This document shows, one piece after another, positions 23,601-54,366 of a stretch of 64,000 nucleotides of DNA. Both the position numbers and the translations under genes were made by a program. The stretch's first letter is position 1. The number at the start of each line of letters is the position of its first letter. Below the pieces are notes generated by a model, which made no database searches, was not told where the DNA came from, and saw only the letters and a list, made by a program, of their open reading frames with translations. The DNA is from Branchiostoma floridae (lineage: Eukaryota; Chordata; Leptocardii; Amphioxiformes; Branchiostomatidae), in NCBI RefSeq assembly GCF_000003815.2, contig NC_049980.1, positions 22,333,249 to 22,397,248 of the forward strand. The letters are read 5' to 3'.

Positions 23601-23855
23601 ATGAGTCGAGATAATGCAATGTTTGTGCTCACTCGTCATGGTGGCCATCTTGGTTTTTACAGTGGGGGTCTCATCATTCCTGACTCGGAGACCTGGCTGC
23701 ACCGGCTACTGCTACAGTACCTTGATGCAATGTCAACTCTAGCTTTAGACCAGTCCAAAGTAAAGGCTAGCACAGATAGTCTCTTGAGCTCATCCAGTGC
23801 ATTTGAAAATCTGTCTTTGTGTGCCTCCTCCAGTGTAGGGACACCGGTAGACTGA
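20618..23855 (+). CDS. ABHD2: ABHD2-type alpha/beta hydrolase (monoacylglycerol lipase family)
   Basis: Two coding exons, 20618-20772 and 22739-23855, give 423 residues (human ABHD2 has 425). The ATG sits in ggccATGg, and the splice joins AG|A as Arg52. Residues 3-22 form a hydrophobic membrane anchor. ABHD2 signature stretches include YTPPILWGRNGHLQS, EFGAMVDDV, NIVCKYM and CCVSAGQGYDAVR. The nucleophile elbow is GFSMG (Ser193). The acid is in NALDDPL (Asp323 or 324) and the base in HGGHLGF (His355), so the triad looks intact. In vertebrates ABHD2 hydrolyses monoacylglycerols such as 2-AG and is the progesterone-responsive lipase of sperm; that role is not shown here. The resemblance is clearly closer to ABHD2 than to ABHD1/3. 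About 95% of the coding sequence is in one exon. AP3B is divergent upstream and FAM184 convergent downstream. Confidence 0.95.
20773..22738. other. ABHD2 intron 1 (2.0 kb)
   Basis: GT-AG intron (aag|gtaatg to ttcacag|at). AT-rich; I see no exon or clear repeat structure in it. Confidence 0.75.
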
Positions 23856-33300: not shown

Positions 33301-33674
33301 TCCGTGATGGCCTGGCGTTTGATTCTCTCGTGCTCGGAGATTGTGGACTCCAGTGATTCGATCTGACGCCGCATGTCCAGCTCGCTTCCAATCTTGCTCC
33401 TGTAGAGCTCGATCTTGCCCTGCATCTCCGCCATGAGCTGTTGGAGCTCATCCTTGTGGGCCTCCTTGATCCTGGACACTTCCAGCTCGTGTTCGTCGTT
33501 CTTGGTGTTGAGGGCGTAGATGACTTTGGTCAGCTGGGCGATCTTCTTGGACATTTTCAGGTGCAGTTCGGGAGGAATGTCCCCACCTATCTGCCCGTTC
33601 TGGGCGGTGGGGACGTTCCCGTGGCGGGAGTTCGTGGTGTAGTACTGCCACGACATCCCTGCTCCGCTTGCCAT
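30339..33674 (-). CDS. FAM184A: FAM184-type coiled-coil protein, single exon
   Basis: 1111 residues from the ATG at 33674, chosen because MASGAGMSWQYY matches the short GMSWQ opening of vertebrate FAM184A; the frame stays open 33 codons further upstream, which I treat as 5' UTR. The conserved block LHLKMSKKIAQLTKVIYALN sits near residue 40. From there to about residue 1030 the protein is almost continuous heptad-rich coiled coil (Glu, Gln, Lys, Leu). The C-terminus has the family blocks VGVMNPLA, RFESAPNLMALGG, RLDPLPGSSSP and PPKQPKKFL, then stops. The longer human tail is missing, and a weak donor (ca|gtgacc) at the stop could hide one more exon. The cellular role of the family is not well defined. 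SCAMP is divergent upstream. FAM184A and FAM184B cannot be told apart with confidence, so the symbol marks the family. Confidence 0.92.
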   Translation of the reverse strand: MASGAGMSWQYYTTNSRHGNVPTAQNGQIGGDIPPELHLKMSKKIAQLTKVIYALNTKNDEHELEVSRIKEAHKDELQQLMAEMQGKIELYRSKIGSELDMRRQIESLESTISEHERIKRQAITEFEIFKQNSEEKERHLRSEHSQQLANLARQLETAQKEFQAQLKSFQQQQQAAIADKETSLQELRSVYQRQVDDILNKQRTQTSELAGEKEKVQQEMEQHILKLRQDCENLEAQNRQVAHEYEDKISKQKALFEKELLVLQGQLSEAQNSQLSSQENEGKLKSDMSRRIAELTNKVSQLTQEVAIRDEDIRKHANDLWQTKTQLTGKDKQLTKLSEDLNAARGEAATMLGKVKELEGEVASLAQRCENQGQDMIQKASLLSTLEELRLTNESKIRDLQQELQRTNDRSKWLEEQCNGLKDQTQTTTQKQNSQIASLEKSLESLSLEKQQLGEEHAKEVMRLQKEAEELQNRLLAEHAAKMNELERQHLAAMAAAREHWEKEMSSLQRDLQDKMTIEVGKLSQEKSVVESELDQLTSDLSSKLSFSEREADRLRKLVEESQSGLGTATSQINMLRETSAKLQEELVGARSQLNNAKQTIENLRKDLETAKNEHQTALSRAHQDHMAQLKSTAAELENSWIGRMQNAQEQLKRQLEQQYTEERKAAVQHINDIRMQEMEEARKSWQSKLNDLTRQLTEYKTQYDAMTVQSAAEKDATKRWAEQEKDRLQKELDSIIEKHQEKISAMESEHQNMASELSRQKEEDLKALQQKLSASHASALSAEREQHQQALVSVREQAQASLQTEVSKVKEMLGRDMDNLRMELAHMHAAELEELNRGHRAQLQAARMELERAMQISQRQQQESDSKIFDLQENLQQKTTNVENLQRQMYGLETSVSSLRKELDAKGQEILRVRSETNQIMYHRENELRQQHQLDIDNLTAEHLRETQSMLGDFNRAQELLKDKISALQIKLEEAEDRFQRRESRPEDLDMIKNLREALSSRELEMKKLIEEKRYYQLELVNRETNYNKVFSAMGPNVGVMNPLATKRKKTEKSGPTRFESAPNLMALGGPPRLDPLPGSSSPTNDFFHAGGGKVLPVPSPPKQPKKFLQ

Positions 33675-34453
33675 GACGGCACGTAGAAAGTTGTGTTGTC
33701 CGGTAAGCGGGCGGCTGGTGGAAGGGTGGGGGGTCGCAGGGAACGGTCGGATATACAAACAAAATTCCGTCAACTCACAGCAACTTTTGTCCTGTGAAAG
33801 ATGTCACCTGTCACGACCTGAACGCCTTCTTGACAAGCACATCGTCCATTATTATCACTTGTCTGTGATTCACTGTCCGAGTGGCAACTAATCCAGGTCG
33901 GTTGAGTCAACGTGACCGGGAAATTGGTGAAATTAAATCCCGTTCGAGACGAAAATCACAAACTGTAAACTTTGCTTTCCGTCACCAAGGACAACTGCGC
34001 AGCGCTTCTGCGCACGATCCTGATTGGTGGGAACGGTCGTTCTGGGTCAAGGGACGAGTCCATAAAACAGTCTAGAAGTGTGGGTTTGTGAAAAATGCTC
34101 TGTTTAAGGTCAAATATTATGCATTCAAATTACGTTTGTGATATCTTAAGAGCATTGATAAGATTTTACACAGTGTATAAAATAAGATAAAATAAATCTT
34201 TAGTCTTACTTTTTTTATTATTTATGATTTTTTCAAAGATCTAAAAACAGAATTTCTGCACTACTTAGTTTCTTCCCTATATAACCCGTGACATCATCTC
34301 CGTGAAGTCACGTGACGGTAGTTCTGTCCGCCATATTTCCTCATACATGGCCAATAGTTGCTAAAAAATTGCCTGGTTTTGTGTTTTCAACTAACAAATA
34401 CAGACAACTGAGCGCCAGCAACAGGTAACCGGGACCTCTGTGACACCAGCAAG
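33675..34453. promoter_or_regulatory. Shared 5' region between FAM184 and SCAMP (candidate bidirectional promoter)
   Basis: The divergent start codons are 779 bp apart. The SCAMP-proximal half carries a perfect GTCACGTGAC palindrome and a CCGCCATATT (YY1-like) site 11 bp after it. These lie about 120-150 bp before the SCAMP ATG, which suggests a TATA-less core promoter there. Confidence 0.55.
34307..34316. promoter_or_regulatory. GTCACGTGAC palindrome (E-box / CLEAR-type site)
   Basis: Exact 10-bp palindrome 137 bp before the SCAMP start codon. In vertebrates this string is the consensus TFEB/TFE3 (CLEAR) site of lysosomal genes and also binds USF. Function in this organism is inference. Confidence 0.5.
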
Positions 34454-37400
34454 ATGTCGGACTACGACAGTAACCCGTTCGCGGACCCGGAGGCGGGCAA
34501 TCCTTTCCAGGTGGGTCGTTTTTTTTTCACGTCGACATTTTTCGCAGGAAGTCTTGCCTGCGTGCCGACTGTACTGACAGGTTTTCCTGGGTGTCGTCTG
34601 TACTACGTGTCACCCTGCCTGCGACTTTTCCTCACTCCTCTTGCACACGGAGGACTATTTGTGCAGAAATTATGTAGTTTGATCACCACTGGGAGTTGTG
34701 TAATGTTCATGAATTTGCTGCTCCGAGTAGAGAAAATTTGAGAGGAATTGAAATCGATATATTCGTTTATTTTCCATCTCCCTTGGTGAGGTAAAATTAT
34801 TACAGTAGATGATACAGCGAAGATCAGCATATGCTGACCTTTTCACATTGAATCCCCGAACGATCAGTTTTGACGACATTGAGGAAGCAATGTCGATATT
34901 CTCTTGTTCAATATGCACAGAAATACCAAATAGTTTGTATATCCAAATTATGGAATTTATCAACAACTGAATGTGTCTAGTTATTCATCTAAAGAGCTCC
35001 CAGGTGCAAAATATTGTCGACTCAAACTGAGTCAAAGGAAATTTTCACACGATTATGGCAAGTGTCTGTATAATGTTTTTATTGGCAAATTGTTTTTGCA
35101 CACAAATGTTTTCATATTGTTTGTTTATTATGGTGCATTGTAATGTCAACAGAGAAACCACATTTTCATGCATGACAATGATTAATCCCAATGTATGTGA
35201 ATTGATTTCATGAGAATTACAAAGGTTTCTCTTATTAGCACTGATATTGTCTTCATGATAATGAAAATGACAATGTGTTTGCAGCACCCCTTTTATCACA
35301 CGTAATTGATTGTTTTGTGACTGGAAGTGGTCAAAGAAGCTACTTGTCAAACAATGATGGGAGGTGCAACTAAATAAGGCAACATCTATATACAGTCTGT
35401 TTGGTGCCAAAAACAAATTGACCATTCTTCCTTGTTCATTCCACTCAGCCCCATGAAAATGGAATTATTTTAGCAGTTTGTAAAAATGTGTAAGTTACAA
35501 TATAAATGACTGGTTCAAATAACTGAAGGGACAAAAGGATGTGGTGCTAGGAATATAGGCAACTGATTTTGTGTGTGGATATATATTATAAGAGTCTTAA
35601 GACACGTGTGCAAGGAGTGTAGGCAACTGATTTTGTGTGTGCTAGGAACAAAGGCAATTGATTTTGTATTGCTATCATCTAGTCATGGCATGAGGCTATA
35701 TTTAGAACTGCGTCATGGCATTGGAGAAAGGTATGTAACAACAAAAGAAGTCAGGTGACTGTGAATTAATAGCCCTTTTGGAAAGTGAGCTAGCCATCAT
35801 GGGACCACTATATAAATGTATACAGGGTAAATGTTTAACCAAGGTTCTTCTCAAACATTAGTTTGTTGAGTTCCAGTAGGATTAGTGAAACACATCCTGT
35901 TCCAGTTCAGTGTTGTTGAAGGAAAAACCTAATCAATGCTGTTTACATATTCCGTATAGAAATACGAGTTTCATAAAGATTTGAAGACAAGAGAAGTAAG
36001 AGTTAAAAAGGAATGCATATAGTCTCACCATTTTGAGGATACAAAATGTATTTTCTTTTCAGTTTCCTTGCAGTAGTTGCATACTTGTGTATGACGAGCT
36101 TTTCCTGTCTCAAAATGTGATGGTCCAATGTTAATGAATATTGATATTTGATAAGAGAATATGTATAAATCAAAACTGACCCAGAAAAATTAATGTCATC
36201 ATATATAAACTATGTCTCAAAGCCTAGTGCTATAGTCAAGTCATATGCAAAGCTCACAGTATTGAAATAATGCAGCAACAATGCTTAAGGCATGTACAAA
36301 ATGTACCTTACCAGACATGTTCAAGATATGTAAGATAACACTGTTTTTCAGATCAATGATTTGTGGTTGATCAATAGGCCCTGTCAAAACTTGACTATTC
36401 CTCAGACTTCTGCCTCAATTGATTTTTTTCCAAGACAAGATAGATGCCTTATTCAACTTGTTTTTATTGTGGGAAATGGAATAGATAAGGCCTATCTATT
36501 CCATTTCTCACATTTATCTTGTCTTGAAAATGAAAGAAATCAGTTTAGGCAGCATTCTGTTCTGATAGGCACTTATAGAACCATTGTGTGGTATTGCTTC
36601 ATATTCCAGGATAACTATGATGAGTTGAAATATATGCAAGCTACAATGTCTAATGCAGTAGGCCCCTGAGAGTATTTAGAAGCTTTCACAAAAATAGTGT
36701 TTGGATAAAATTCTTGACATTTTCAAGGTTAATGAAATTTGTTTTTTGGCTGTAGATAACCAACATGAAAATATTGTTTGTCATTGGATGAGAATTTTGG
36801 CTTTGACTGTACAGTCCTCCCCAGACTTCCTCTACCCACAACACTGTGCTCTGAGTAAACACTGAGCCATGTTTGTACCATTTTGATTTCCTCCCTTCCC
36901 TAGGGTCAGATTACGGCTTGGGACAATAAAGACTCTGTCTACCTTTATTGACTCTTGTCCAGGATGCCTTCCTTCTTGTAAAAACACCTGGGGAGAATAT
37001 TTCCTGTAAAACATACCTAGCACTGACTGATGCCACACCCAGCACTTAATGTAAGAACAATCTAGAAACAAAGCTGTAAGGCAGATGCTTTGGCTCTTTT
37101 CTTCAAAATTGAAAAGACATTGAATATATCCAAATAAATATTTAACATTGAATTCCATTGTGATATATGTCTTATAGTCTTTATCTCCCTACAATAAAAT
37201 ATCAAGCATATTTTGCTTATTGACAGCTTGTATTGAGTAATACAATGTAGTTCTACTTGAGGGGCTTTGGTTTTGTTTTGCTTTCTGTTTATCAAATTAT
37301 TGTGATATTTTTGTGTTTGTTAGACATTTTTTTTAATTATCAAACACCCCCATATCCTCTGGGCCTATTCTCTACTAATGAAGAACAAGAACCAGGCACT

Positions 37401-40400
37401 TTGCTGCACATGACTCGGGTATGCACATGCACATGGAGCATGTCCGATTGTCGGGTAATGCCATCATAAATATGCATTTTAAGATGTGATGGCCGTGTGA
37501 TGGTAGATCCAGAAAAAACAAAATGAGGAGGGGCAAGATCATCGCCAAGATTGCTATTTGCCAATTTGTCTATACAGTACTCAAACTAATCTAACATAAA
37601 ACTATATTATTCATTCCAGAACAGTCCTACATTAAATGAGGCTACCACACTAGTTAATTGTACTGCATTCCTGGCATTTACTTGCATCAACATACATGTA
37701 GTCATTGCAGGGAATTTACATTTTTGACAGTAAGGGTTCTGGGACAGCTATCAATGACAGGCTCACAAGAGTAGAAAATGAAACAAAGCTGAGTCTTATT
37801 GTGAGAGGAAACATAGGATGAATTTACGAAGTAAAGATATGCCTTACCGTACGTATGTATATAGTGACATATTCCCTTATTTGAACATATATGTTTGTTG
37901 ATAAAGAGAAGTAGAAAAATGTTAGAATGGACATTGGAAATTTATTTGATAACATATGTCCAATATGACAATATGTTGTTAACAACAGAAATATCCCACC
38001 CAACTGTTTCAGGACCCGTCAGTGACCCAGGTGACTGGTGCTGCCCAACAAAACTTTACGGAGGAGTTCAACCCTTTTGCTGAGCAGGGTCGTACCACTG
38101 TAAGTAGATTGGCTTTTTACCATAAGGTGCCAAGCTTTCCAGTTTGTTATTATCATCGGTGACCTGCTGCTGTCTTATCATACATTTGTTTCTCAAGATA
38201 TTATACTTAAGAAGTCATGCCAAGGTAAATGGTAAAGCATTGTAAATTGTATTTTTTATACATATATTATAAGCAAAGCGACAAGACAAACATCTAGTCT
38301 TCTTATAAGATTGACAAAGGGGCTGTTATGAATAAGGTCTTACCGTTTCCAATAATTCAACTACCTTAACTGTTAAATGATATATGATTTTCCTATACCA
38401 GTATCAGTACCCCTTTTTTGTGATTGACATTTTAAGTGCAAGTTTAGAAGAAGCACTACTGTAAGAATGTGTGTATATACGTGACATTATCATGATTATG
38501 TAAACTTGTTCTTATAAACCGGTAATCTACATGTGCATGGTGTGTAACCATTTTGTATTTCTCCTAAAGTTGGTTGGCCCCTTAACAATAGCTACCTACC
38601 AGTTGGCTATGTGTATACCAGCCACACAGATAAGTGAATAATTGTCCTTCCACTGTTGGATTTCTCACGTATCCCCCAGGCTGCAGGAGGGAAGACCAAC
38701 CCTGTGGTCCCCCCTCCCCAGAAACCCCAGCCAGCTCAGCAGCCTGCCGTCATGAGACCCACAGAAGAGCCTCCTGCCTACTCACCCAGCGCTGCACAGG
38801 TAATTACATAAGAGGGTGTCTTCAGCATTCGCCAACAGTCGGATCATTCTCTTGCTTTTTGACAACATCTTTTTGTATATTTCTTGTTCCCGTACTGTCA
38901 GTCAGTGTAGTTGAAGTTGATTTATTCTAACGGCATTGAATAACATAACATTACAACATATGATCATAATGAGACCAAAGTCCACTTCAGTAAATAAATG
39001 TTCATAAATATTTACCTATGGACATAGTCATCCCTTTGCACTATGACACTTTTGGATCAACAAAATTATCTTAAATTTCATCTATAAAATTATATTAAAG
39101 TTCATCTACAAAATCATTTTTCATCTGTCTTCATTTTACAAGGCTATTCTTAGAGAAAATACTATAATGATGGTTGTAGATCATAAAGAATGCACTGACT
39201 TCTCCATATGTACTTGAAATGTCGTGATTTTTAGGACACTTAGATGTAAACTGATGTATCCCCTGTTTTATTTTACAGCAAGCCCAAGGACCTGCAGTTC
39301 CCACCAATGAAGACCTTATGAAGCGACAAGAGGTACGGAGTAGGATCAACTTAAAGAAAAAGGATTCATGCTTGTAGAATGCTTTTATGATTGCAAGTGA
39401 CTGTGTTCACTGATAGCCCATGGAAACATTCCTAAATTGTATCCTAAATCCCAGTTTGTTCAGGATGTTCTGTGTTTTAGAACATGTGAAAAGTACCACC
39501 GGTAATTGTATTGATGCCACAAAGCCAATAACCTGTCTACATTGCAGGAACTGGAAAGAAAAGCAGCAGAGTTGCAGAGAAAAGAGAGAGAAATGGCAGC
39601 TGGCACATACAACGGTAAGGCCAGACTTTTCTGTCACAAACCAACATTATCTTTTGTTTCCAAGTCTTTAAGAATGAAATGGCAGAGAGTTAACAACTTG
39701 TGAAGAAACCTGCCTCGTGTCACTGCTAAAAGTGATGACAGATGGCATTATAAATAGTTCTATTTCATCCTTAGGTCAAATTTCTAATACTTGTAACTCA
39801 ACAAAATTGTATGCTGTGTGTGTTTCCTGATATTTGTGGTCAACATAGCTGATGAACCTTGAAATTGATTGTTATGATATTTGGCATGTGGGTAGGAGTT
39901 GGGAAGATTAAGGTCAAAGTCAATTTTGGGCACCCTGATGTTTAACCTTGATGTTGTTGTTGTTGTTGACAGCTCGAGCAAACAACTGGCCACCCCTACC
40001 ATCGTGGTGTCCAGTAGGGCCATGTTTCTACCAGGACATCTCTGTAGATATTCCTCTAGAGTTCCAGCGCACTGTCAAAATGATGTACTACTTGTGGATG
40101 TGTGAGTACATGACTATGTATAGAGGATTTTATACATTTGCTGTAGTTTTATTGGCAAAGACTGTGTTAAGTCCAAAAGCTTTTGGGATTCCTGAATTGT
40201 CATTTTCTTTTTTGAAACTGATAAAAAATTTTGTTATTTGATACCGGTTGCTATTTTTCTCAAGAAAAGTTATCAGATCATCAAGTCTTCAGTGTGTATA
40301 TATAGAATACAACACGGTGTATCACACAAGGTACCAGCCCAATCGTGGGTCAGATTGCCTGTCTGCCAGAGGGCGATCCAACCTGCTGGAGGGCTGGACC

Positions 40401-43400
40401 GAGGGTGATGCAGATAACACCATGTCGTCTTTTATTTATGTCATACCCACCTTAGAAAACACACGTTCCGATGCAAAATGTGCCGAAGGTAAAGAAATTG
40501 CCATCCAAACAATTGCAACAGCAGAAATTCCAACCTCCGAATCAGGTGTTTGAATTTGTCAAGTATGTTCAAATTATTATGTGTTATGGAACTCGTTCGG
40601 AAGACCTGTATCAAACGTTATTGCGACACAAGTATGACATAAAACAGTCTTATGTCACTGCAATATAATACCATTGTGATTACGAAGTGAAATCGCATTT
40701 AAGAACAAGTGAAGTTGCATGGTGTATCTCTACAAATGACTTGCATACAATATCACTCAGCTTGCTTCAACATGTCTTTGTGAACATGCATGTCAGCTAC
40801 TTACTTTAGTGCATGGATTTTACTTGTATTTATACATGCATGTTTTTTTGTTGCCTTTATTATTCATGAAAAGATTTGTCCTACCATTTTACCATTCTAA
40901 ATGTGCTATGCCAATTTTGTTTTAATGCTGCATGTTGACAATTGTTAGTTTCTCATCCCCATGTTTACTATAGGTATTGTTTTTACACACCTAACATGTA
41001 GAAAATTTGTATGAAATTCTTGTTTACTTAGTAGTTCTGCTATGTTTCCACTGTACATAGTTTCATGTTTTATTTTGCAGTGATGAGCATGGTCCACAGG
41101 ACATACATGTACCCTTCATACAACACACATGACTAAACTGTGACTGTGACATTGTTCTTGTGATTCAAGTTCACGATCTTAATCAATAAAACTGTGGTCA
41201 GCTTGCACTGTTCTTCCACAAATGACAAGACAAAATCAAATTTTTTTTTGCTGGCAAACAGACTTATTCTTTGGTCTTGAGCATACAAAATGTCAATATG
41301 CTTTGTTGAAGTATGCAGTGAAGAACAGTACAAGTAGGGCAGTTCTTAATGTGATTCTCAGGAGGCTTGAGATACTTGCTTGGGGTTGGGCCAGTCTTCT
41401 TGCATTTACATAACTACTAACATAGGAAGGATGCTGGAAGGAATTTTGAAAAAAGAGTATTCTCTTTAGATTTATAGTAAAATAGCTAAAGACATTTATT
41501 AGATCATATTCGTAGATAACATTTTTGGCATATTTAAACATATGCTGATCTTTTCTGATGCAAAATGATGATAATGAAAGGTTCAGTCTTAAAGCAAACA
41601 CCTCAAGCCTTCCTATTTATAACCATGATGCACCAATCCATCTCCAATCCAATGTCACGCCTTCTCTCCACAGTCCACGCGGTGACGTTGTTCCTAAACG
41701 TGCTGGGAGCGCTGGCGTATTTCTGCACGACGGGGACCAGTTCTGCTGGCATCACCTTTGGCTTAGCCATTTTCTACCTGATTCTGTTCACCCCTTGTTC
41801 CTTCCTTTGCTGGTACCGGCCGCTCTACAAGGCCTTCAGGTAACCATGACAACCCCACAGTGGTGATGATGGACTATAGGAGTTGTGATGTTTTCTACTG
41901 GCTTGTCATAACTGTGTGGATGGACTCATTTGGACTGTCTAAATCACCCTTGGAATTTGAATTATTAACTCAAAATGTACTAGAACTTTGCTAATATTAA
42001 AAGCTGCCTTTCTCAAGTATTTCACAATTGCCACAGTAGCTTCCTCTAGATGAATTGTAGTGAAAGCTTATCAATTGTCACGTAATGCCTTGACACAATT
42101 CATATAGTTTTTGCTACTGGATCCCTGCTAGTTTGTAGAGTTACTCAAACTTTAGGGCAGTTGTAGGAGGCAGGCCAGATTGTATTCAAGCCACAATACC
42201 ATGAAATCAGCTTGAAATGCAACAGAACCATTCCACCAGATGTAATATCAAAAAAAGGGTCAGATGAGAATTTGATGTTCCAAACTTGTGCTGATTCAAA
42301 CAGTTTTGAACAAGCTGGTGGAAGATATTCATGTTTAACCTGTCCTCTTTCAGGGACCAGTCTTGTATGATGCAGTCTAAGAGACTAACATGTAACAGGA
42401 CTTATAGCACAAAGTTTACCAAGCAGAGGAATAAACAAGTCTTATCCCCAATTAGGACCTTGACGACAGGAACAAATGTCTTAAGATATTGACCTGAAGA
42501 TTGACTTCATCATGCAAATCAACACCATTAATTAGCTTTAATTAGTGCATAATCCATTAATTGTGACAGAAAGAAAACAAAGAATCAACAGCAATAATGC
42601 AAAATCTAGTGATCAGAGAGAGTTGGTAGGAAAGAAAGTAAACATCAACATTTTCCCCACGTTCAATTCAGTCCACGTCGTCACCTTACTTCTCAACCTT
42701 CTCATGATGATCGCTAATGTGGCAGCACTTGGGGTGGACCTTACTGCTGGAATCGGCCTTGGGATGGCAATCCTCTTTACGCTACTCTTCCCACCTTGTT
42801 CGTTTTGTTGCTGGTTTCGTCCACTTTACAAGGCCTTCAGGTATTGGGAGATCTCACCCAAATCAGATGAGACCCACAAGAATCAACGAATCAGAACTAT
42901 ATTAGGAAAATCAGCCAATGATGCATGAAATCATAAGGCAAAATGATGCCAGTGTTTTACAGTCCAAATCCACCACACTTTAGAGCATGTTGATCATGCC
43001 TGTCCAATGGAACTGGACTCAGACACTGCTTTTCTGCTCTGTATCTCCTCTTTTTCCCCACTTTTTGGTGCTGACAACACCAAACTGATAAAGATTTTCT
43101 CCCTGACATGGACATCTGGTAACACTCGTGTCTTGTTCAGAACAAAGATATGAACTTTGTTCTCTGTTTTCAAGGAGAGCCTTTGCAACCCACGCCTTAA
43201 ATTGCAGATCCTGAAGTTCTATAGTTATGTACAAGACATGAGGGTAACCAGATTGTCCTTTTGCATGATTCACATTGCAGAGTCACAGGACTGTAGTGCA
43301 GAGAGCTTAGGGTCAATAGCAGACCTCTTACAAATCAAACACACGGAATGCTACACGCATGGTTGTACAACATGCATGATGGAAAAATTCCTCTCTGCCT

Positions 43401-46400
43401 CCTCCAGTCCATAGCATCACCCTGATTCTCAACTCAATTATGCTGATCGCGTACTTCGCCACGGGCATACCCGGCACGTACAACGGAGGGGTGGGCCTTG
43501 GACTATCGTTCTTGTATCTCGCAGTTTTACCGATATGTTCCTTCGTTTGCTGGTATCGCCCCATGTACAAGGCCTTCAGGTGAATCATAACATAAAAACC
43601 CAGGGTTGCAGCAATAAATCGTTTTGATCAGGCTGGCACCTGAAGAATTTCAAGAAAGACATTTTCATTCCTGAATGTTAGCCAGATAGATGGTAATGAA
43701 TTTTCGATGCATAATTCTTTTCAATGAACTGTCTTCTTCTAAAACAAAATCCAAACACATTTCATCTTTATGTCATAAATAGCTATGAAAACAGACAAGT
43801 ACATAGAAACATGTATGGGCCATCCCTCTCTAGTGTTGATGACAACTTCCATACCTAAAATCTTGCTTGACAACATGACAAGATATTAATGAGCGTAACC
43901 CCTCATGTTAATATCTGAAATCTGCTGTAATGAGTGCCAGCCTGCCATGGTATAATTCCCAGTTTTGCACCAAGATTGCTGCTTCTGGACTTAGTGTGTT
44001 TATGGTGTGCCATGTTGCTGTGGATAAGGTTTGCTGTGTTGCTTCACTTTCAACTTCAGCTCTCCTAGCAGGGTTCGTACCATTGGGCAAATTAATTTCA
44101 CTTCACTTGAAAAAGTAGTGGAGGTACTAGTATTCAATATGTTAAGGAAATGGGGTCTTATTATTCACATAAGAGAGAGAATAGCAAAAATCTGAACTTG
44201 TGTGAAACAGCTTTTTTCGACAAAGTTATCAGAAGGGGTACGGACTCTGTAACTATCTAACTCCACTTTGATTAAATCTTCCACCAATTACTAATAATTT
44301 TGCAGCTTTATTTATTGATAGAGAAATCAACCTAGTTATAAGTTTGTATTTTAAGCTGTTTGTTTGATCTGACTGTACTTAAACTGTAGTGTACTGCCTT
44401 GTTCAGATATTTAATGTGTTGTCAATCTGTTTCAAAAGTGACTAGTATACTTTGATATAAAAATAATCTTGTTTGATGTGTTGTTGTTTCTTTATCCAAC
44501 AAAACAAGAAATGTAATGTAATTGAACTTCACTGTTTACTTGTTCTCAAATTCTGAGATAAACAAGTCGTAAAACGATCATCCAGACTTTTATTAAAAGG
44601 AAGAAAAAAAATGACAATTGTTGAGAGATTGCCTGGATATTCCAAGTCTGAACGTTTTTCCTTTGTTTTTTTCCCTACAGGAGTGACAGCTCCTTCAACT
44701 TCTTTGTGTTCTTCTTCATTTTCTTCTTCCAATTCGTGGTCCACATAATCCAGGCTGTGGGCATCAGTGGATGGGGAACTTGGTAGGTAGTCTGGTTCTA
44801 CATTTGTTTTTGTCTTTTTGATGTAAGAATATTCATTCTATCTTTTATTACTCAGTAACAACAATCTGGTAAGCTTGTATATGTCTGAATGAGCTTGTTT
44901 CCATATTGTTATTTCTTTGCTGTAGCCTTGACATTGTAATCAATTCTGCAAAAAATTAGGCTTGTTTTTTTGATGAGAAAAGTCCAGGACCAACATTATT
45001 ATGAACATTCTGATATTAGCATGCCAGTTTGTGTATTTACCACATGTCCTTTTACAGTACAGACATTTGGCACAGCTGCATGTAAATGTGCCTTCTCTTC
45101 ATGATGCTGACTTGGACAACCACAGGAAAAGACACTCAAAGATGTAAAAAAAGATTGACATATCCCAATATGCTAAAAAGTAAAAGTATAGTTGCAGACT
45201 CAGAACTAGACTACGTCTTTGTTATGTTTGACACAGTTACTCAAGTCAAAGCTACTGTCTAAATTGAAAATAGCAGAATGGCTGTTGCAACCCCACCATG
45301 TCATATGCTACATATACCTGAAATACTAACTTAGCTGCCCTGTGGCACTGATGCCTGTTCCATTTCAGCGGTCTAATCAATGGCCTGATGCTGGTTGGGT
45401 CAGGCAGTAGGGATGACGACAAGGGCGACTTAACCATTGGTGTGCTCATGATCACCGTGGGCTGTCTCTTTGCCTCGTGTGGTATCATGGACATGCTCTT
45501 GCTTAAAAAGGTAGAATTTCTGTTTGTGACAAAAGAGCTCCTGTCAGAATGTGACAGGATGTCTGCTTGTGTTCATCTGGCAGGTTGGAATGTACATGTA
45601 GGACATTTCATCCAATCACTCTTCATATATGGCCTCCTTCGGTCAATATTGACCATGGTAAAATCCTAATTGATATCAGCCCTACAGCGTCGACTGTGGC
45701 TCTTCAGTTACACAATATTGAAATTGCAAGACAGTAGGGTTGTAGACACCTACAGATTCGGAAGCGATATAGGCAAAATTTTCCCAGCCAGAAGCAGACA
45801 TCCTCCACACAGAGCATGCCCTCCTCCCCTGTTGTGTCCATTGCATGCATTTTACATGCCTGTACTTTTGTTTACCCCCTCCATGTGTAGTGGTTGGATT
45901 AATGGCATTACGGCAGTCACCCAGAACCCTGGTGTCGGAGCCATCATGCTGATCATAGCCGCCTTCTTCACCATATCTGCTGTTCTCAGCATTATTTTTC
46001 TCAAGAAGGTAGACCCTTCCATTTTTTCTTTTCTGTTCTTGTTTTTTTGGTTTGTCTTGTGTTATGAGAGCCAGGATGGTAGAGCATTTCTGTTTAATCA
46101 CTCAATAAATGCACATGTTAGATGTATTGGATGTCCAATTATGTGGTGACACACATTATCAAGATAAAAGCTTTTTTTTTAAATTCACAAATGGCAACTT
46201 GCTTGATTTTTGTCATAAACTACACCAAAATAAATTGTGATGTGAGACTAGCAGTCCAGTGGGTGTTGCTGTGCAATAGACCTTTACATGGATGCTTGGA
46301 CACAGTGCATTGTGGGTGCTCCAGTAGGCCTCCATAGCAGGCTCCAAGACTAGCCCTTTTGTGAGCTTATTATGTGCAGTTGTTTGAATAATACAGGTAT

Positions 46401-47274
46401 TCTCAACCACCTGACCACACCCCATTAGCAATCAGAAAACCCATATTAATCAGAAAAACAACACATAATGAGCTTAAAGGCATTGATCAGCTTTAAAATT
46501 AAAGGCTGCATGGCCCATGATGCACTTTGTACTTGTATCTGTAAAAAGGTCTAGATCATGTTACCATACATGAAGTGCTGTCTCATGTAGACAAGTGCTA
46601 ATCATTACCTTGTAAATGGCGTTGAATTAACGACAAATGTCTGTTAAGAAAAACGGAGGAAGCTAACAAAAGATCCAAATAACTTCTTATTATGGCTCTC
46701 TTCTGGTATTTCATCACTCTATACTACAATTTTGTTACCAACTTTTTTGTTTTAGTGAACTCATACTCAGCCTTATTTTCTGAAAAAAATGGTCTTGTTA
46801 TTTTTGTGTGCCTTTCTTTTTTTCCCCAGAATTTTTTACTGTTATTTGGTCAGGCGGCAGTTATTTTCAGGATATGTACATGTATGGTAACATTGCTGCT
46901 TGTGGCACTGTGCATGTGAGTATTACATGTGAAAACTTGAGACTTGAATGTAAGTCGTCTGTTTTATTTTAAGGTTCTCCTTTGTGCTATTGTGGCCTTT
47001 TTTCCATGTACATGCAGTTTGGTCCATAACAATTTCACAATCACTAATATATTTGGTGCATTATCTTCTTGACCATGACCTTGGTGTCCGTTGTCTCTAG
47101 GTGCACAGCCTGTACCGTACAACAGGCGCCAGCTTTGAGAAAGCCCAGGCGGAGTTCACCGAGGGTGTTGTGGCGAACCGCGGGGTCCAGCAGGCCGCTG
47201 GGCAGTTCGGCGCTGCTGCGGCGAAGGGCGCAGCCAGGGGCGCCATGTCGGGCGCGTCTGGGAACCAGATGTAG
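34454..47274 (+). CDS. SCAMP: Secretory carrier-associated membrane protein (SCAMP) with two mutually exclusive exon clusters
   Basis: Four-pass post-Golgi and endosomal recycling protein. Constitutive exons: 34454-34510, 38013-38099, 38680-38799, 39279-39332, 39548-39614, 39973-40101, then one of three exon 7 copies, 44681-44782, one of two exon 9 copies, 47101-47274. With 7A and 9B the product is 357 residues (human SCAMP1 338). The N-terminus has three NPF motifs (7-9, 16-18, 39-41), which bind EH-domain endocytic proteins. A proline-rich stretch follows, then a short coiled coil (about 95-125). Exon 6 has the family block [19 protein letters not shown]. The E-peptide [10 protein letters not shown] is at 217-226. 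The conserved tail [19 protein letters not shown] opens exon 10. All introns are GT-AG and in phase. It is closest to the long SCAMP1/2/3 type because of the NPF-bearing N-terminus. Confidence 0.96.
34511..38012. other. SCAMP intron 1 (3.5 kb)
   Basis: Holds a three-copy direct repeat near 35544-35676 (aggcaactgattttgtgtg and variants) and a foldback at 36408-36556. No exon recognised. Confidence 0.7.
36408..36556. repeat. Imperfect foldback element in SCAMP intron 1
   Basis: The core hairpin has 19-bp arms, 36469-36487 (gtgggaaatggaatagata) and 36493-36511, with one mismatch and a 5-base loop. Outward, caagacaagata pairs with tatcttgtcttg, and ttctgcct...tgattt pairs with a match near 36536-36556. 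A roughly 20-bp asymmetric insertion interrupts the left arm. Confidence 0.75.
39810..39960. repeat. Dispersed repeat, family A copy
   Basis: Shares ordered motifs with 13738-13930, including atgatatttggcatgtgg and gtaggagttggg. It lies in the intron just before SCAMP exon 6. Confidence 0.5.
41081..41190 (+). CDS. SCAMP: Possible alternative terminal exon of SCAMP (truncated isoform)
   Basis: A strong-looking acceptor (gttttattttgcag) lies in the intron after exon 6. Joined to exon 6 it would add [18 protein letters not shown] and a stop at 41134-41136, with AATAAA at 41185-41190. The product would be a soluble N-terminal SCAMP fragment with the NPF motifs and no membrane segments. Only sequence features support it. 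Confidence 0.3.
41674..41839 (+). CDS. SCAMP: SCAMP alternative exon 7A (TM1, lumenal loop 1, TM2, E-peptide)
   Basis: 166 nt, entered with one base carried over and leaving two bases. It encodes 54 whole codons opening [16 protein letters not shown] and closing in the E-peptide [10 protein letters not shown]. This copy is closest to vertebrate SCAMPs. Acceptor ctccacag|tcc, donor ttcag|gtaacc. Confidence 0.95.
42672..42840 (+). CDS. SCAMP: SCAMP alternative exon 7B
   Basis: 169 nt with the same entry and exit phases as 7A. It encodes 55 codons opening [19 protein letters not shown] with E-peptide [10 protein letters not shown]. About 30 of 54 aligned residues match 7A by eye. Differences cluster in TM1 and the lumenal loop ([11 protein letters not shown]). 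Acceptor attcag|tcc, donor ttcag|gtattg. No stop or frameshift. Confidence 0.93.
43408..43579 (+). CDS. SCAMP: SCAMP alternative exon 7C
   Basis: 172 nt with the same phases. It encodes 56 codons opening [16 protein letters not shown], with a longer lumenal loop ([15 protein letters not shown]) and E-peptide [10 protein letters not shown]. Acceptor cctccag|tcc, donor ttcag|gtgaat. Intact and clearly divergent from both 7A and 7B. Confidence 0.93.
45369..45510 (+). CDS. SCAMP: SCAMP alternative exon 9A (lumenal loop 2 and TM4)
   Basis: 142 nt that completes the Cys codon split after exon 8 and encodes 47 codons. It opens [10 protein letters not shown], has an acidic loop insert ([10 protein letters not shown]), then a TM4 ending [11 protein letters not shown]. 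The loop is eight residues longer than in 9B. Acceptor tttcag|cgg, donor aaaaag|gtagaa. Confidence 0.92.
45891..46008 (+). CDS. SCAMP: SCAMP alternative exon 9B (lumenal loop 2 and TM4)
   Basis: 118 nt with the same phases as 9A. It encodes 39 codons, [20 protein letters not shown] then TM4 ending VLSIIFLKK. This copy has the usual vertebrate SCAMP length. Acceptor gtgtag|tgg, donor aagaag|gtagac. Confidence 0.94.
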
Positions 47275-50200
47275 TGACCCCCACGGGGAACACTGCACGT
47301 TGTTTCCATCTGATCATAACCACAATGCACTGCTATGATTTGGGCTCTGCTAACCCATCTCCTTCCCAGCATGTTCTAGCATGGCACATTTCTTATTGTA
47401 CCCCCACTTACGACTTACTTCCAGCATATGTACAATTCCAAGAGAAGAGTAAAGATCAGCATACTGTACACCTTCCCAAGACATAACTGTGTTCCTCTTT
47501 TAAGTTATGATAGCATATAGTGAAATAAATGTACTTTCTTTGACTCAACCCAGTTTTAACTGTTTCAAATATAAGTCCCCTTGCAACATAAGCTGACCTT
47601 GCATAATTATCAAAAGTTATGTTTGAAGGCCAGCAGATGTTGCAAAGTAGAATCCTATCAGGGGCCATCTGTGCGAAGGCTTTTACCCAGGTAATGCCCT
47701 CACCATCATATCTCCCTGAAGTTTGTCCTGGCAACCCCCTCAGCTGTGCATTAGGATTGGATAATGAGAAACAGATCTGGTGTCAGGACATGCTTCCCAT
47801 GTAAGCCCCCGGCTGAATCCAGAGTCTGAGTAAGTAGGTGTAGTGTCCACAGGACTAGCACATAGGGCATATTCATGTGATGTCATCGGCGCATCTGCCA
47901 CCTTATTTGCATTGGTGTATAATGTATCTCCTGACACCCAGAATTGACTACCATGATGTGGCCAAATAGGCTTCAATAATACAAAGATTCACATCTTGTC
48001 AGTGACATGCAAAGATGCTCAGACAGAATCACTGAAATGGGCCTCAACATCTTTAGTGGGTTACTTAAAAAAGTAAGATCAAATGAGTGAATACACTCTA
48101 TACTAGTTCTGGTGGCTTACCAATGACTTAATACACCCTGAGGTAAGCAGTTGTACTACTGTACACAGGCCTTCTTATTGTACTGAAGGCAACCATTGGC
48201 AGATTGTGATTATTCTTTTCTTTTTACTAAGAGATGTACAGAAGGAACCTTAGAAAGAAATCTAGAAAATGTATATGTAAGTTTCAAGATGTATATCCAT
48301 CCCTGCATAAATCCTATTTGCAGAAAATGTTGCTCCAAAGAATATAAGTGCTGCAATGCATTCACATTCTGTACATTGGAGATCGAAAACAGTTTTGAAA
48401 AAGAAAACCATGCCATGTCCATGGCCACACCTTTTGATTTTATTTCTTGAATTTCTTAACAGTTAATCATAGCTTTTGCTATTTCTCTTGATAGTTTTCC
48501 CTAGTTTACCTATACTTCTTATTATTCTGCCTTGCTTTCTCTAGTTTCTCAGAGTACATGAAGTGGTGTGGCCCAAAATGTGTTCAGTTTCTTGATGCTA
48601 TCAACACATTCCATCCAGATAGTGGCACTCCTACTGACTAATGCTGATCAAGAAGGAAACTGTAGAGTTATTACCCCTGCTGAAAGCAAAGCTGTTTACT
48701 GCTCAGTACATTTTGTTTCTCCATTGGAAAGTAGGAATTTTCAGGTGTGTTTGCATGTAGAAAGAAATGCTGGTGTAATTACATATAATGCCACATTTAT
48801 ACAGAATTTTCTAATGTTCCTCATCAAATAAAGACTGACAGGAACTTATGTAGTAATTAGTATTTCTGTAGTTTTCTGGATATACATAAACCTGTAGACA
48901 ACAAGTATCTGCTGTAACAAGGTGTCATTTGGTCCTTCCATATTGAAGCTAAGTAAAATGATAGGCAGATAGATATATTCTTTCATAGTGAAACATACAT
49001 GTTATGTCTTTGTAGCATATTGTATGACTAACTCAGATCTTGTAGAAGGGAAGCACTCATCTGTGTATGCCATAGAACCATTGATCAATGTCCTTGATCC
49101 ATGTCTTTCAAATGGGTCAAAGGTCACAAAAAGTTCCTACAAATTTCCAGTGCTCATTTCTATTCCAGAATCTCAGAAGTATTGACAATATGATATGATG
49201 AAAGCTTGTACTACATAATGATTTTTGGCAAGAAGAAAGTGGCCGTTAAGTCTTAGTTTGACCACTTAGTGTGGGTGAGTAAATGTGTTAACCAATTTGG
49301 TGATTATAAGGATATTGCAACTAGTTTTCCCGTGGTCTGTCTAGTAAAGTTTAAAAAATGTGTAGAAATTACTGGAGTTGGGGGCTATTGTAAATGCCTT
49401 TAGCTAAGCATAAAATATTACCCAGACTTGAATCTACTGGAATGAAATCCATTTTTCGGAATCAGTAGAGAAAGTTCTGTTATATGTTAAGTTGCAATGT
49501 TAATAGGCATCCGAAAGAAAAGAATAGACATTTGATGTTGTTTTGTTCCAGTGTTGTGCTCAGTTGCAGTGCTGCTTTACCACCTCGTGTAATTTTCATG
49601 GCACAATACAACATTTCTCCATTTCATGTAGAATTGAAATTAATGCAATGCGAAATTTTGATGTGTACAGCACTGATTGTTCTGTGTTATTTTGCACTTC
49701 AATGGATGTTCCACAGCTCAATGCTTGGTTTTGCCTTCAAAGAATATTTGAAGAAATTATAGACATACAAGTGATATATATCCAACTATTTGTACAAGTA
49801 TGTGTATGTGGTTGCTAATGTACATCTTGGTGCAAATTGTGTACTTATAATAATTTTCAAGGCATAGGATGTTTATTTTACAAGATACTGAAATCAGCTA
49901 TTCAATTCTATAAAGTTCAATAGTTCTGGTGTCTACAAGTTGTCCACCCTTTTGGTAAAGTCCAGATTTGCTAACAACTTATTTGGAAAACTGACTAAAA
50001 GATTCACATTTTACTTGGTGTTATCTTACTTTTCTAAAAGGCTCCACCCTTGATTTCCTTGCTAAAAAATCCATATTTTGTGGACACTAGATTTCTAGCA
50101 TGAGGTTATGATATATGTATCACAATGTTGTAGTTTGTATTTATTAAATCTTGTATACTATTGTTGATTAAGGAGAGATGCGGTACAAATTGCTGTAAAC

Positions 50201-51302: not shown

Positions 51303-51951
51303 GTAAGTTTGGGATAATTTGTTTCTTTATATAGCACACGAACTTCGAAAGTCGTCGCCCCTCCCCATAAAATACGGAGTCATTAATGAGGGTGACAGAT
51401 AGTTCTGCATTAGCCGGCATAACTTGGTTTTCGAATGAAGTTTGATGGCAATGACCTTAAATCAAAAAGACAGCGTCATAAATTACGAAGTGTATGTCGA
51501 GATGGCACTGACTTGCAGTGGCGCTATCTCAAGGAGGGAGGGGCCAACTTCTGCAATTCTGTAAGGTGACACCAGTCTCTCTACAGTCCCTGTCTACTGT
51601 GGCAGAAGAGAGTTCTCCCTAATTGCCTTCTTAAGACAATGAAGGAAAACACCATATACACTACAGTTTTGTTGGTTTCCACTAGCTTTGGATAGAAAAT
51701 ATTATATGGAGACATTTACCCCTGTAGGTCTTAACAGCTGTCTTGAATTATTTTTGCCCTAGTTCTTTTCTCACAGGTCACTCTTTACCCTGGAGCAGCA
51801 GCTGATAACTAATGATAAAAACTGGTGCAAAAGGAGAACCCTTACCCGATGACATGGAAATCTTTATCAGTACATATCATTATCATAGAATGTTAACGTT
51901 ATGTCTTATTGAAAGTTCAACCTCAAAGGTTTGGTTACATTTTTGTTTCAG

Positions 51952-54366
51952 ATGTTCCCACAAAAGTACTCCAATGGACCTTTCATTCAGAATGGGAAAC
52001 AAAGTTTGCTTGGCGTACCAACATATTGCTATGGATCCACCCAACAGGTTTGGAGCAAAGAGGTAACGCTGTCAGGGACAGCAGCACTAGTTCACCAGCG
52101 GACCATGTTTTTGCCCAGGGTACTGTGGATTCCCAACCTTCACTACCAACCCACACAGCACACACACACACAGCACAGGCAGGACAGTAGAGACGGCAAT
52201 GTTGTGAGCAGTACAAGTGTCAGGAAGAGAAAAAGGTCGGCCAAGTTAAAGAATCTTGCTTTGCCTGTCTGTGAAAAGACTGATGTGCCTTCAGGACTTA
52301 AGAATATCAGGGAAGGCGATGCTGCGAGCAGTACAAGTGTCAGGAAGAGAAAAGGGAGGCAAAAAAGGTTGACTGAGTTTAAGCTTCCTGCTTTGCCTGT
52401 CTGTGAAAAGGCTGATGTTCCTTCAGGACCAAAGTGCAGTAGAGAAGGCAATGTGAGCAGTACAAGTGGTATTCCTCCTGATGTTGAGACATCAGGAAAC
52501 GATATACCACATGACCACTCTTGCAGTGATGACCAGTCAGGAAGTAAAGACGTTGACACTTCAGATCATGCAGCAAAGGAAGAAAAGGACCCACCGACAG
52601 AACAGATTGGGTGTCATAAAAGGAATTTTACAGTCATCATCAACAAGCCATACATTGATGTCATGTCCAAGGCACAAAAATCTCCATTAATAAGCCCTCA
52701 GTTGGAGAAAACAAGGCAATGCATTAAGAAACGAGTCCATTACACTCCAAAGATGAGGGGACGGCACGTGGCAAGTCCTTGGCGCAAACTCCATGGGCAA
52801 CAGAAAATGTACCAAAGCAATAAGTGCACGTTATCAGCACGGTTTTCTAAACTGACGGGCAGAAACATACCAAAGGAGCAGACTGTAGCCAACAACTCTC
52901 CAGGAAAGATGTTTGCAAGCAGTAAACCTATTCCTCCAGTGCATGAGTGGCTGAGTAGCTTCTTTGGAGTGAGTAACAGCTCTGGCAATGGATATGGACA
53001 TTCTAGTACCACAGATGATGACGATAGCTTTGTGCAGCTCCGGTGCATGCTGGGCAGTGTTGATCAGCTGAAGGCTGGCAATGAGGGCAGTCTAAATGAG
53101 GATGTTGGTGATGTGAAGGATTTACACGTGGAGAATGGTGTTCACACAGACACTGGTGAAACAACCAATGATGATAGCTTTGTGAAGCTTCGATCCATGC
53201 TCAGAGCTCATCGGATTGGCAGTGTTGAACAATTGAAGGCTGGTAATGGGAACAGTCTAAATGATGAGGATGGTGATGTAAGGGATTTACACATGGAGAA
53301 TGGTGTTCACATGGACACTGGTGTAACAGCAAATGATGACGATAGCTTTGTGAAGCTTCGATCCATGCTGAGAACTCATCGGATTGGCAATGTTGATCAG
53401 CTGAAGGCTGGTAATGGGGGTGACCTAGATGAGGATGATGGTGATGTAAGGGATTTACACGTGGAGAATGGTGTTCACATGGACACTGGTGGAACAGCAA
53501 ATGATGACAATATCTTTGTGAAGCTTCAAGCCATGCTGGGTAATGTTGATCAACTGAAGGCTGACGATGAGGGCAGTCTAAATGAGGATGATGGTGATGC
53601 AAGGGATTTACACGTGGAGAGTGTTGTTCAGATACACACTGGTGTAACAGCAATTGATGACGATAGCTTTGTGAAGCTTCGATCCATGCTGAGAGCTCTT
53701 CAGACAGGCAATGTTGATCAGCTGAAGGCAGGCAATGGGGGTGACCTAGAGGATGATGATGATGGTGATGTAAAGGATTTCCATCTGGAGAATGGTAGCA
53801 GTGAGGAGCATGATGATGAGTATGATGATAATGTGTTTGAACAACAGTTGGAGATGCAGGAAAATGACATGGACATGTCATGCACAGAGGAGTCCTTGCA
53901 GATGCATATCACTGAGGCTGAGGTCAGAGTTGTTGAACTAAATGATGAAAAGAAACCTCCAAAGAATGTTTGCAAGGACACTTACGCCAATTTGAGCACA
54001 AGTATGAAACATACTGAAAACAACCACAACAATAACAAGGTGGAAAATGCGGGTGGAAGTTCCAGTCCACAGGTGGAGAGCTGGCTCCAGGCAACATACA
54101 AAAGAGGGAAGAATGTGAAACTCAGTGAGGAGGAAATCCCAACAGGCTGTGAGGAGGATGTGGAGCTCATTGACTGGAAACAGCTCCTGTGTCTGCTCTG
54201 CAGGAGAAGGTTTAACTGCAAGGGGGAGCTCCTGAGACACCAACAGTTCTCCAATCTGCACCAGTCCAACCTGGAGGTGAAGAGAAGGGCACTTGAGGAG
54301 GAGCTGAAGGATTTGGAGATGGAGCTAGAGCCTTCATCATCCTCATCAATCTTCCCCAATGCATAA
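51952..54366 (+). CDS. Repeat-rich acidic protein with RBM5/6/10-style C2H2 zinc finger
   Basis: Open frame of 804 residues from the ATG at 51952, which directly follows a tttcag acceptor, to a TAA. Regions: residues 1-75, unlike the rest (MFPQKYSNGPFIQNGKQ); about 80-175, two and a half repeats of an SSTSVRKRK...LPVCEK...VPSG unit, basic and NLS-like; about 350-620, five repeats of 51-57 residues (DDDSFVKLRSML, NVDQLKAGN, DGDVRDLHVENG); then an acidic stretch. Near the C-terminus lies a C-x2-C-x12-H-x5-H finger (747-769, CLLCRRRF...RHQQFSNLH) preceded by DWKQL and followed by a charged helix. That block closely resembles the finger of splicing regulators RBM5/6/10, but no RRM, OCRE or G-patch is present. 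A nuclear, RNA-related role is inference. The 5' end is uncertain; an internal gt at 52062 (gag|gtaacg) could be a donor. Confidence 0.7.
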   Translation: MFPQKYSNGPFIQNGKQSLLGVPTYCYGSTQQVWSKEVTLSGTAALVHQRTMFLPRVLWIPNLHYQPTQHTHTQHRQDSRDGNVVSSTSVRKRKRSAKLKNLALPVCEKTDVPSGLKNIREGDAASSTSVRKRKGRQKRLTEFKLPALPVCEKADVPSGPKCSREGNVSSTSGIPPDVETSGNDIPHDHSCSDDQSGSKDVDTSDHAAKEEKDPPTEQIGCHKRNFTVIINKPYIDVMSKAQKSPLISPQLEKTRQCIKKRVHYTPKMRGRHVASPWRKLHGQQKMYQSNKCTLSARFSKLTGRNIPKEQTVANNSPGKMFASSKPIPPVHEWLSSFFGVSNSSGNGYGHSSTTDDDDSFVQLRCMLGSVDQLKAGNEGSLNEDVGDVKDLHVENGVHTDTGETTNDDSFVKLRSMLRAHRIGSVEQLKAGNGNSLNDEDGDVRDLHMENGVHMDTGVTANDDDSFVKLRSMLRTHRIGNVDQLKAGNGGDLDEDDGDVRDLHVENGVHMDTGGTANDDNIFVKLQAMLGNVDQLKADDEGSLNEDDGDARDLHVESVVQIHTGVTAIDDDSFVKLRSMLRALQTGNVDQLKAGNGGDLEDDDDGDVKDFHLENGSSEEHDDEYDDNVFEQQLEMQENDMDMSCTEESLQMHITEAEVRVVELNDEKKPPKNVCKDTYANLSTSMKHTENNHNNNKVENAGGSSSPQVESWLQATYKRGKNVKLSEEEIPTGCEEDVELIDWKQLLCLLCRRRFNCKGELLRHQQFSNLHQSNLEVKRRALEEELKDLEMELEPSSSSSIFPNA
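52196..52470 (+). repeat. Coding direct repeat (SSTSVRKRK / LPVCEK units)
   Basis: The string agcagtacaagtgtcaggaa occurs twice and a shortened form a third time. Each is followed, in the first two units, by a lysine-rich stretch and ttgcctgtctgtgaaaag. Confidence 0.9.
53008..53800 (+). repeat. Five tandem coding repeats (about 153-168 bp each)
   Basis: Unit starts near 53008, 53161, 53326, 53493 and 53647. Each unit encodes an Asp-rich turn, FVKLRSML, an optional RTHRIG insert, NVDQLKAGN, and DGDVRDLHVENG. High nucleotide identity between units shows recent duplication inside the frame. Confidence 0.93.

Follow-up and report, generated by a model that had tools for sequence, protein, structure and literature searches.

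The window analysed here, a stretch of 64,000 nucleotides (nt) from the lancelet Branchiostoma floridae, very probably holds a SCAMP gene in which tandem duplication has given rise to two clusters of mutually exclusive exons. One cluster consists of exons 7A, 7B and 7C, the other of exons 9A and 9B, and together they could yield up to six isoforms. SCAMPs are conserved vesicle proteins with four membrane spans (TM1 to TM4) and both ends in the cytosol. Each copy of exon 7 encodes TM1, a lumenal loop, TM2 and the E-peptide, and each copy of exon 9 encodes TM4. The spliceosome would pick one exon from each cluster. In all four pairs of copies within the two clusters we find neighbouring internal exons of similar length that share phase and splice type and are homologous, which are the features by which mutually exclusive exons are recognized in sequence.

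We rebuilt the gene on the forward strand, where its coding exons span positions 34454–47274 of the window. The exons are as follows:

34454..34510, forward strand: exon 1, start codon and 19 residues, two NPF motifs, phase 0 out, placed by its translation and GT donor
38013..38099, forward strand: exon 2, 87 nt, from the exon map
38680..38799, forward strand: exon 3, 120 nt, proline-rich, from the exon map
39279..39332, forward strand: exon 4, 54 nt, from the exon map
39548..39614, forward strand: exon 5, 67 nt, charged and coiled-coil-like by eye, from the exon map
39973..40101, forward strand: exon 6, 129 nt, constitutive, 5' of cluster 7, where the Pfam SCAMP domain begins
41674..41839, forward strand: exon 7A, 166 nt, predicted alternative, TM1-loop-TM2-E-peptide, scores highest with Pfam SCAMP among the three copies, strong acceptor and donor
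42672..42840, forward strand: exon 7B, 169 nt, predicted alternative, TM1-loop-TM2-E-peptide, weakest acceptor
43408..43579, forward strand: exon 7C, 172 nt, predicted alternative, TM1-loop-TM2-E-peptide
44681..44782, forward strand: exon 8, 102 nt, TM3, constitutive, between clusters 7 and 9
45369..45510, forward strand: exon 9A, 142 nt, predicted alternative, TM4, lumenal loop eight residues longer with an acidic 10-residue stretch
45891..46008, forward strand: exon 9B, 118 nt, predicted alternative, TM4, recognized by Pfam
47101..47274, forward strand: coding part of exon 10, 174 nt, C-terminus and stop

All four of the isoforms scanned (six are possible) match the Pfam family PF04144 over its full length, from position 2 to 172 of 172, at 214–230.6 bits against a cut-off of 27. 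Besides the E-peptide, the predicted protein has NPF motifs and a stretch that is coiled-coil-like. Hydropathy profiles place hydrophobic stretches at TM1, TM2, TM3 and TM4 in all six isoforms, the TM1 and TM2 windows merging in 7B. A comparison with the sequences of solved structures found no homologue of this SCAMP. The consensus of the SCAMP E-peptide, between TM2 and TM3, is CWYRPxYKAFR. Each copy of exon 7 encodes an E-peptide of 11 residues, which in 7B carries one change. The position of the E-peptide between the two spans is described in PMC13198271.

The three copies of exon 7 had been pointed out in a first-pass annotation of this DNA, which predicted that they are spliced in a mutually exclusive manner. 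Their coordinates, lengths and AG/GT borders agree with our exon map. All three lengths are 1 mod 3, and the phases, with one base carried in and two carried out, are identical in all copies, as the annotation had it. Each copy is also what it was taken to be, namely the TM1-loop-TM2-E-peptide segment of a SCAMP: taken with their border codons, the single segments match the Pfam SCAMP family at 65.1 (7A), 49.3 (7B) and 49.8 bits (7C). The whole-codon translations comprise 55, 56 and 57 residues for 7A, 7B and 7C. Smith-Waterman scores of the three pairs are 157, 156 and 147, compared to shuffle means of 25–26, and none of 2000 shuffles per pair scored as high. Out of 54 aligned residues 30 are identical between 7A and 7B, 28 between 7A and 7C, and 27 between 7B and 7C.

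The cluster 7 copies are old, because their synonymous sites are near saturation. The proportion of synonymous differences, pS, is 0.68–0.77, that of nonsynonymous differences, pN, is 0.29–0.32, and pN/pS is 0.39–0.44 (Fisher p = 9e-7 for 7A–7B, 8e-7 for 7A–7C and 2e-5 for 7B–7C). Third codon positions hold most of the differences in all three pairs (p = 0.0097, 0.0032 and 0.031), and 12 of the 20 invariant residues are encoded by differing codons. The substitution pattern fits selection, as had been proposed, and the kind of selection is purifying. The pair 7B–7C is informative by itself: 7A does not enter into it, and it still has a pN/pS of 0.44. Hence, at least one of 7B and 7C must be under constraint.

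The invariant columns are concentrated in the E-peptide block PCSFxCWYRPxYKAF, the borders of which we set ourselves (11 of 15 columns, compared to 9 of 42 elsewhere; p = 0.001). In the remaining parts, 6 of 18 columns are invariant in TM1, 2 of 11 in the loop and 1 of 13 in TM2. The annotation had stated that the fold is kept while the loop and TM1 vary. TM2, with its single invariant column, belongs among the varying parts as well.

The reading frame limits how the copies can be combined. We joined all 8 subsets of cluster 7 with all 4 subsets of cluster 9 into the otherwise fixed gene, which gives 32 combinations in total. The native C-terminus is reached in six of them, and these are exactly the combinations with one exon per cluster; the other 26 do not reach it. 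The six full-length isoforms would be 357, 358, 359, 365, 366 and 367 residues long. Without any exon 7 translation stops after residue 171, and with two or three of them after residue 228–241. One exon 7 together with both 9 exons leads to a stop after residue 311–313, and one exon 7 with no exon 9 meets no stop inside the given coding exons. The earlier claim that only a single exon 7 copy per mRNA gives a full SCAMP is borne out by this test, provided that one exon 9 is included. If cluster 7 were skipped, or two exons of either cluster were joined, the early stops would lie 5' of later junctions, and nonsense-mediated decay of such transcripts would be expected.

Tandem homology, equal phases, similar lengths, intact reading frames, purifying selection and the loss of frame with any number of copies other than one all support mutually exclusive splicing of cluster 7. 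The second cluster, which the first-pass annotation did not contain, is the duplicated TM4 exon at 45369–46008. The lengths of 9A and 9B are both 1 mod 3, and the two exons share their phases, with two carried bases in and none out. 9A, with its first split codon, encodes 48 residues and 9B encodes 40; 9A thereby lengthens the second lumenal loop by eight residues that bring acidic charge. The Smith-Waterman score of 9A against 9B is 46 (shuffle mean 19.3, reached by none of 2000 shuffles), which is far below the scores of 147–157 for the pairs of cluster 7. On its own, 9B matches the Pfam SCAMP family at 30.4 bits.

Our searches of the 513-megabase assembly (431 contigs) suggest that this is its only SCAMP gene. 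With the Pfam SCAMP profile there are six matches (11 candidates scored), and a protein query made of the SCAMP membrane core gives seven; all of them lie inside this gene. The protein search hit exons 6, 8 and 10 once each, and the DNA of exon 7B matches only itself. Since the query retrieved 7B at 55% and 7C at 51% identity, a similarly diverged paralogue should have appeared as well. A paralogue as diverged as 9A could escape these searches. Profiles of exons 7, 8 and 9, run over both strands of 33900–48500, revealed no further copies and no tandem duplication of the gene: the worst E-value of a known exon is 6e-7, and the next best matches have values of 0.54, 0.73 and 0.05. One candidate for a fourth, decayed copy of exon 7, at 40102–40280 and reading on from exon 6, had been suggested by genome matches. 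The stretch resembles the TM1–TM2 segment and has a TGA where the E-peptide has its tryptophan. Added to exon 6, it raises the Pfam score by 7.6 bits; alone it has no Pfam match. We rejected this candidate, as 84 of 1000 shuffled tails score as high.

How might one exon be chosen over the others? Steric hindrance is unlikely because the introns between the copies are long enough (832 nt between 7A and 7B, 567 nt between 7B and 7C, 380 nt between 9A and 9B). There is also no sign of U2/U12 incompatibility, as all splice sites are GT-AG. We scored splice sites with a matrix of splice-site frequencies, and give the percentage of AGs or GTs in the gene that score as high. The annotation had assigned good splice sites to every copy of exon 7. 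This is correct for 7A (top 0.8% of AG and 1.3% of GT) and for 7C (1.0% and 1.0%), but not for 7B (30.8% and 8.6%), whose acceptor in particular is weak. The sites of cluster 9 are intermediate (9A, 3.6% of AG and 10.3% of GT; 9B, 9.5% and 6.4%). None of the five alternative exons has a G at position +5 of its donor, compared to six of the seven constitutive ones (p = 0.015, an optimistic value since the difference was seen by eye before the test).

A second lead is the hexamer TGCATG, to which Rbfox-type proteins bind. It occurs 12 times in the 6130 nt of introns beside alternative exons and twice in the 5134 nt of other introns (Fisher p = 0.028). The count of 12 was matched by none of 300 shuffles, the count of two was reached by 223 of 300, and five sites lie within 300 nt of an alternative exon (Poisson p = 0.031). 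This enrichment, too, was noticed by eye before it was tested, which makes its p-values optimistic, and in the whole window there are 75 copies on both strands where 65.4 are expected. We treat TGCATG as a possible regulatory signal and as a lead only. The sites are:

40716..40934, forward strand: five TGCATG (Rbfox-type), intron 6–7A, at least 740 nt 5' of 7A
42922..43378, forward strand: three TGCATG (42922, 43262, 43373), intron 7B–7C, at +82 from 7B and at −141 and −30 from 7C
45077..45082, forward strand: TGCATG, 287 nt 5' of 9A
45842..45847, forward strand: TGCATG, 44 nt 5' of 9B

At a threshold of 1e-5, the stretch 40716–40934 matches nothing else in the genome. Rbfox proteins usually activate an exon from a downstream site and repress it from an upstream site. 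From the positions of the sites, this rule would therefore predict 7B to be switched on, and 7C and 9B to be switched off. The Rbfox C-terminal family PF12414 gave no match in this genome, nor in 14 control genomes, and this does not show that the protein is absent.

We propose that regulatory proteins acting together with weak donors most likely determine which exon is chosen. 7A would be the default exon and 7B the regulated one, and Rbfox-type proteins at TGCATG are the best candidate regulators. Several observations weigh against our interpretation. 9A is its weakest part: alone it has no Pfam match, it was missed by both assembly searches (Pfam profile and protein query), and for 9A and 9B neutrality is not rejected (pN/pS 0.69, Fisher p = 0.086; codon positions, p = 0.53). 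The evidence for cluster 9 is weaker than that for cluster 7. The weak acceptor of 7B belongs here as well, as do the computed U1 pairing energies, which fail to distinguish the alternative donors from the constitutive ones. Finally, TGCATG ranks only third among the hexamers near alternative exons, it does not occur in introns 7A–7B and 7C–8, and the site upstream of 9A misfits a simple Rbfox model.

One could also argue that a single copy is chosen at a time, not mainly by regulatory proteins, but by competing or bridging RNA structures of the docking and selector kind. A possible bridge around cluster 7 has two arms:

40344..40413, forward strand: left arm, inside an interspersed repeat
44040..44107, forward strand: right arm, in a stretch (43980–44140) that matches itself only

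The duplex of the two arms spans cluster 7 and has an energy of −61.5 kcal/mol. The best duplex of 70-nt windows between introns 6–7A and 7C–8, at −64.8 kcal/mol, is reached by none of 60 local and 30 full shuffles (lowest shuffle −57.5), and a common dock in intron 7C–8 (−29.7, compared to a shuffle mean of −25.3) is equalled in one of 24 shuffles. These values would speak for RNA structure as the selector. The left arm, however, is part of an interspersed repeat (39 of the 40 candidates scored are other copies), and is probably an insertion, and a common dock in intron 6–7A is matched by 3 of 24 shuffles. We consider this mechanism unlikely, and because the left arm is part of a repeat we do not use the duplex as support for mutually exclusive splicing. 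Less likely still is that only 7A and 9B are used, and that 7B, 7C and 9A are old duplicates, dead or nearly so, whose frames are open by chance. In favour of such decay are the Pfam scores, which are best for 7A and 9B, the acceptor of 7B, which is the weakest, and the constraint on 9A and 9B, which is not significant. Dead copies are hard to reconcile with 7B and 7C, though, which have kept frame, borders, phase and E-peptide although most of their synonymous sites have diverged from 7A, and whose low pN/pS between each other requires constraint on one or both. Moreover, the exon block aside, there is no direct repeat longer than 30 nt in 40100–47100, and the block stops 3 nt beyond the exon ends.

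Joint inclusion of the copies, as cassette or constitutive exons, is highly improbable. Repeat proteins sometimes combine homologous exons that lie in tandem, but here pairs and triples of exon 7, and both 9 exons with one exon 7, end in the early stops described above (a result for the mapped exons), and extra hairpins would alter the four-span topology. For a productive joined transcript, a further exon would have to restore the frame. We give hardly any credence to the idea that the copies are gene copies or haplotypes collapsed in the assembly. We found no point in its support; the copies differ at about half of their residues, with synonymous sites near saturation, and exons 6, 8 and 10 as well as the DNA of 7B each occur once in the assembly. 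Two clusters of mutually exclusive exons hence remain our preferred explanation.

If one exon per cluster is chosen, then the swap would vary both lumenal loops and three of the spans, TM1, TM2 and TM4. TM3 and the cytosolic parts, with the NPF motifs, the coiled-coil-like stretch and the C-terminus, would stay constant, and the E-peptide nearly so. The exon swap would most likely tune the selectivity for partners, cargo or lipids in the membrane or the lumen, and not the E-peptide. The discussion of PMC13198271 assigns a transporter contact of SCAMP2 to the E-peptide; if so, all lancelet forms would probably retain this contact. A more far-reaching possibility is that the six isoforms form a combinatorial set, in which a shared factor switches both clusters together and a form with 7B and 9A is made in neurons or muscle. 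Rbfox is offered as an example of such a factor because TGCATG lies 3' of 7B and 5' of 7C and 9B. We regard this co-regulated set as rather doubtful. If it did exist, splicing in lancelets would take the role that five genes have in mammals, and a near-constant E-peptide would already be naturally separated from variable membrane and lumenal parts.

Exclusive splicing of exons that arose by tandem duplication is a well-described phenomenon, and a SCAMP as an example of it appears to be new within the literature searched. Sequence criteria for such exons are given in PMC3228551, where only 90 of 16180 (0.56%) non-exclusive exons of the Drosophila X chromosome share these features. In humans, 377 (60%) of the clusters of mutually exclusive exons contain exons not divisible by three (PMC5740500). 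The lancelet exons resemble the cases in these two papers in length, phase, splice type, homology, internal position and in the frame that breaks upon joint inclusion. In contrast to those cases, they are predicted from sequence. The word SCAMP is absent from the main text of both papers. In the literature searched, mostly titles and the starts of abstracts among the matches listed, we found no report of exclusive exons in a SCAMP. The search covered literature other than subscription papers and genome annotations, and RefSeq models may already list the isoforms. Among the papers that mention both SCAMPs and mutually exclusive exons, some deal with CUGBP2 and exon 6 of SCAMP3, with an isoform switch of SCAMP5 in cancer, and with an alternative 5' site in SCAMP3.

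Three known systems come close in different ways. In the muscle myosin heavy chain gene of insects, exclusive exons of one gene likewise replace a gene family of other animals (PMC2257972), but the protein is a different one and its splicing is established. NALCN is likewise a membrane protein encoded mostly by a single gene, in which alternative exons (15 and 31) swap a membrane segment (PMC3557258). It differs in that the segment is a channel pore, with two alternatives that have been confirmed by cDNA in a snail; for amphioxus, the same paper reports a single NALCN pore type in the genome. SNAP25 is a vesicle-release protein that likewise has tandem exons, and these switch during development (PMC1794582), but it does not span the membrane and has only a single cluster, of two exons. 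That paper treats SCAMP1–5 as a gene family. Within the SCAMP family itself, mammals diversify by genes, of which they have five, and Drosophila has one (PMC4235465). Transcripts RA, RC and RD are mentioned for Drosophila Scamp, the last of which may encode a shortened protein, and the word stem "splic" is not present in the text of that paper. The lancelet gene would be a clean test, in an invertebrate chordate, of splicing and gene duplication as routes to protein diversity. With six natural variants that share the same cytosolic parts, the membrane and lumenal regions that determine SCAMP function would be revealed.

There are some further observations on the surroundings of the gene. The interspersed repeat in intron 6–7A (40300–40560) shares 77–79% identity with 39 further copies; out of 1249 candidates, 40 were scored. 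Shorter matches on the opposite strand suggest an internal inverted repeat, and the repeat may extend to about 40660, where short matches recur. Upstream of the gene, an open frame of 1111 residues from ATG lies on the reverse strand at 30342–33674 and matches Pfam FAM184 at 166.7 bits. It is oriented head to head with the SCAMP gene, the two starts being about 780 base pairs apart, and the two may have a promoter region in common. An open frame of 817 residues at 51913–54363 has no Pfam match at 0.001, and one of 380 residues at 22713–23852 contains an alpha/beta-hydrolase domain (PF00561, 59.5 bits).

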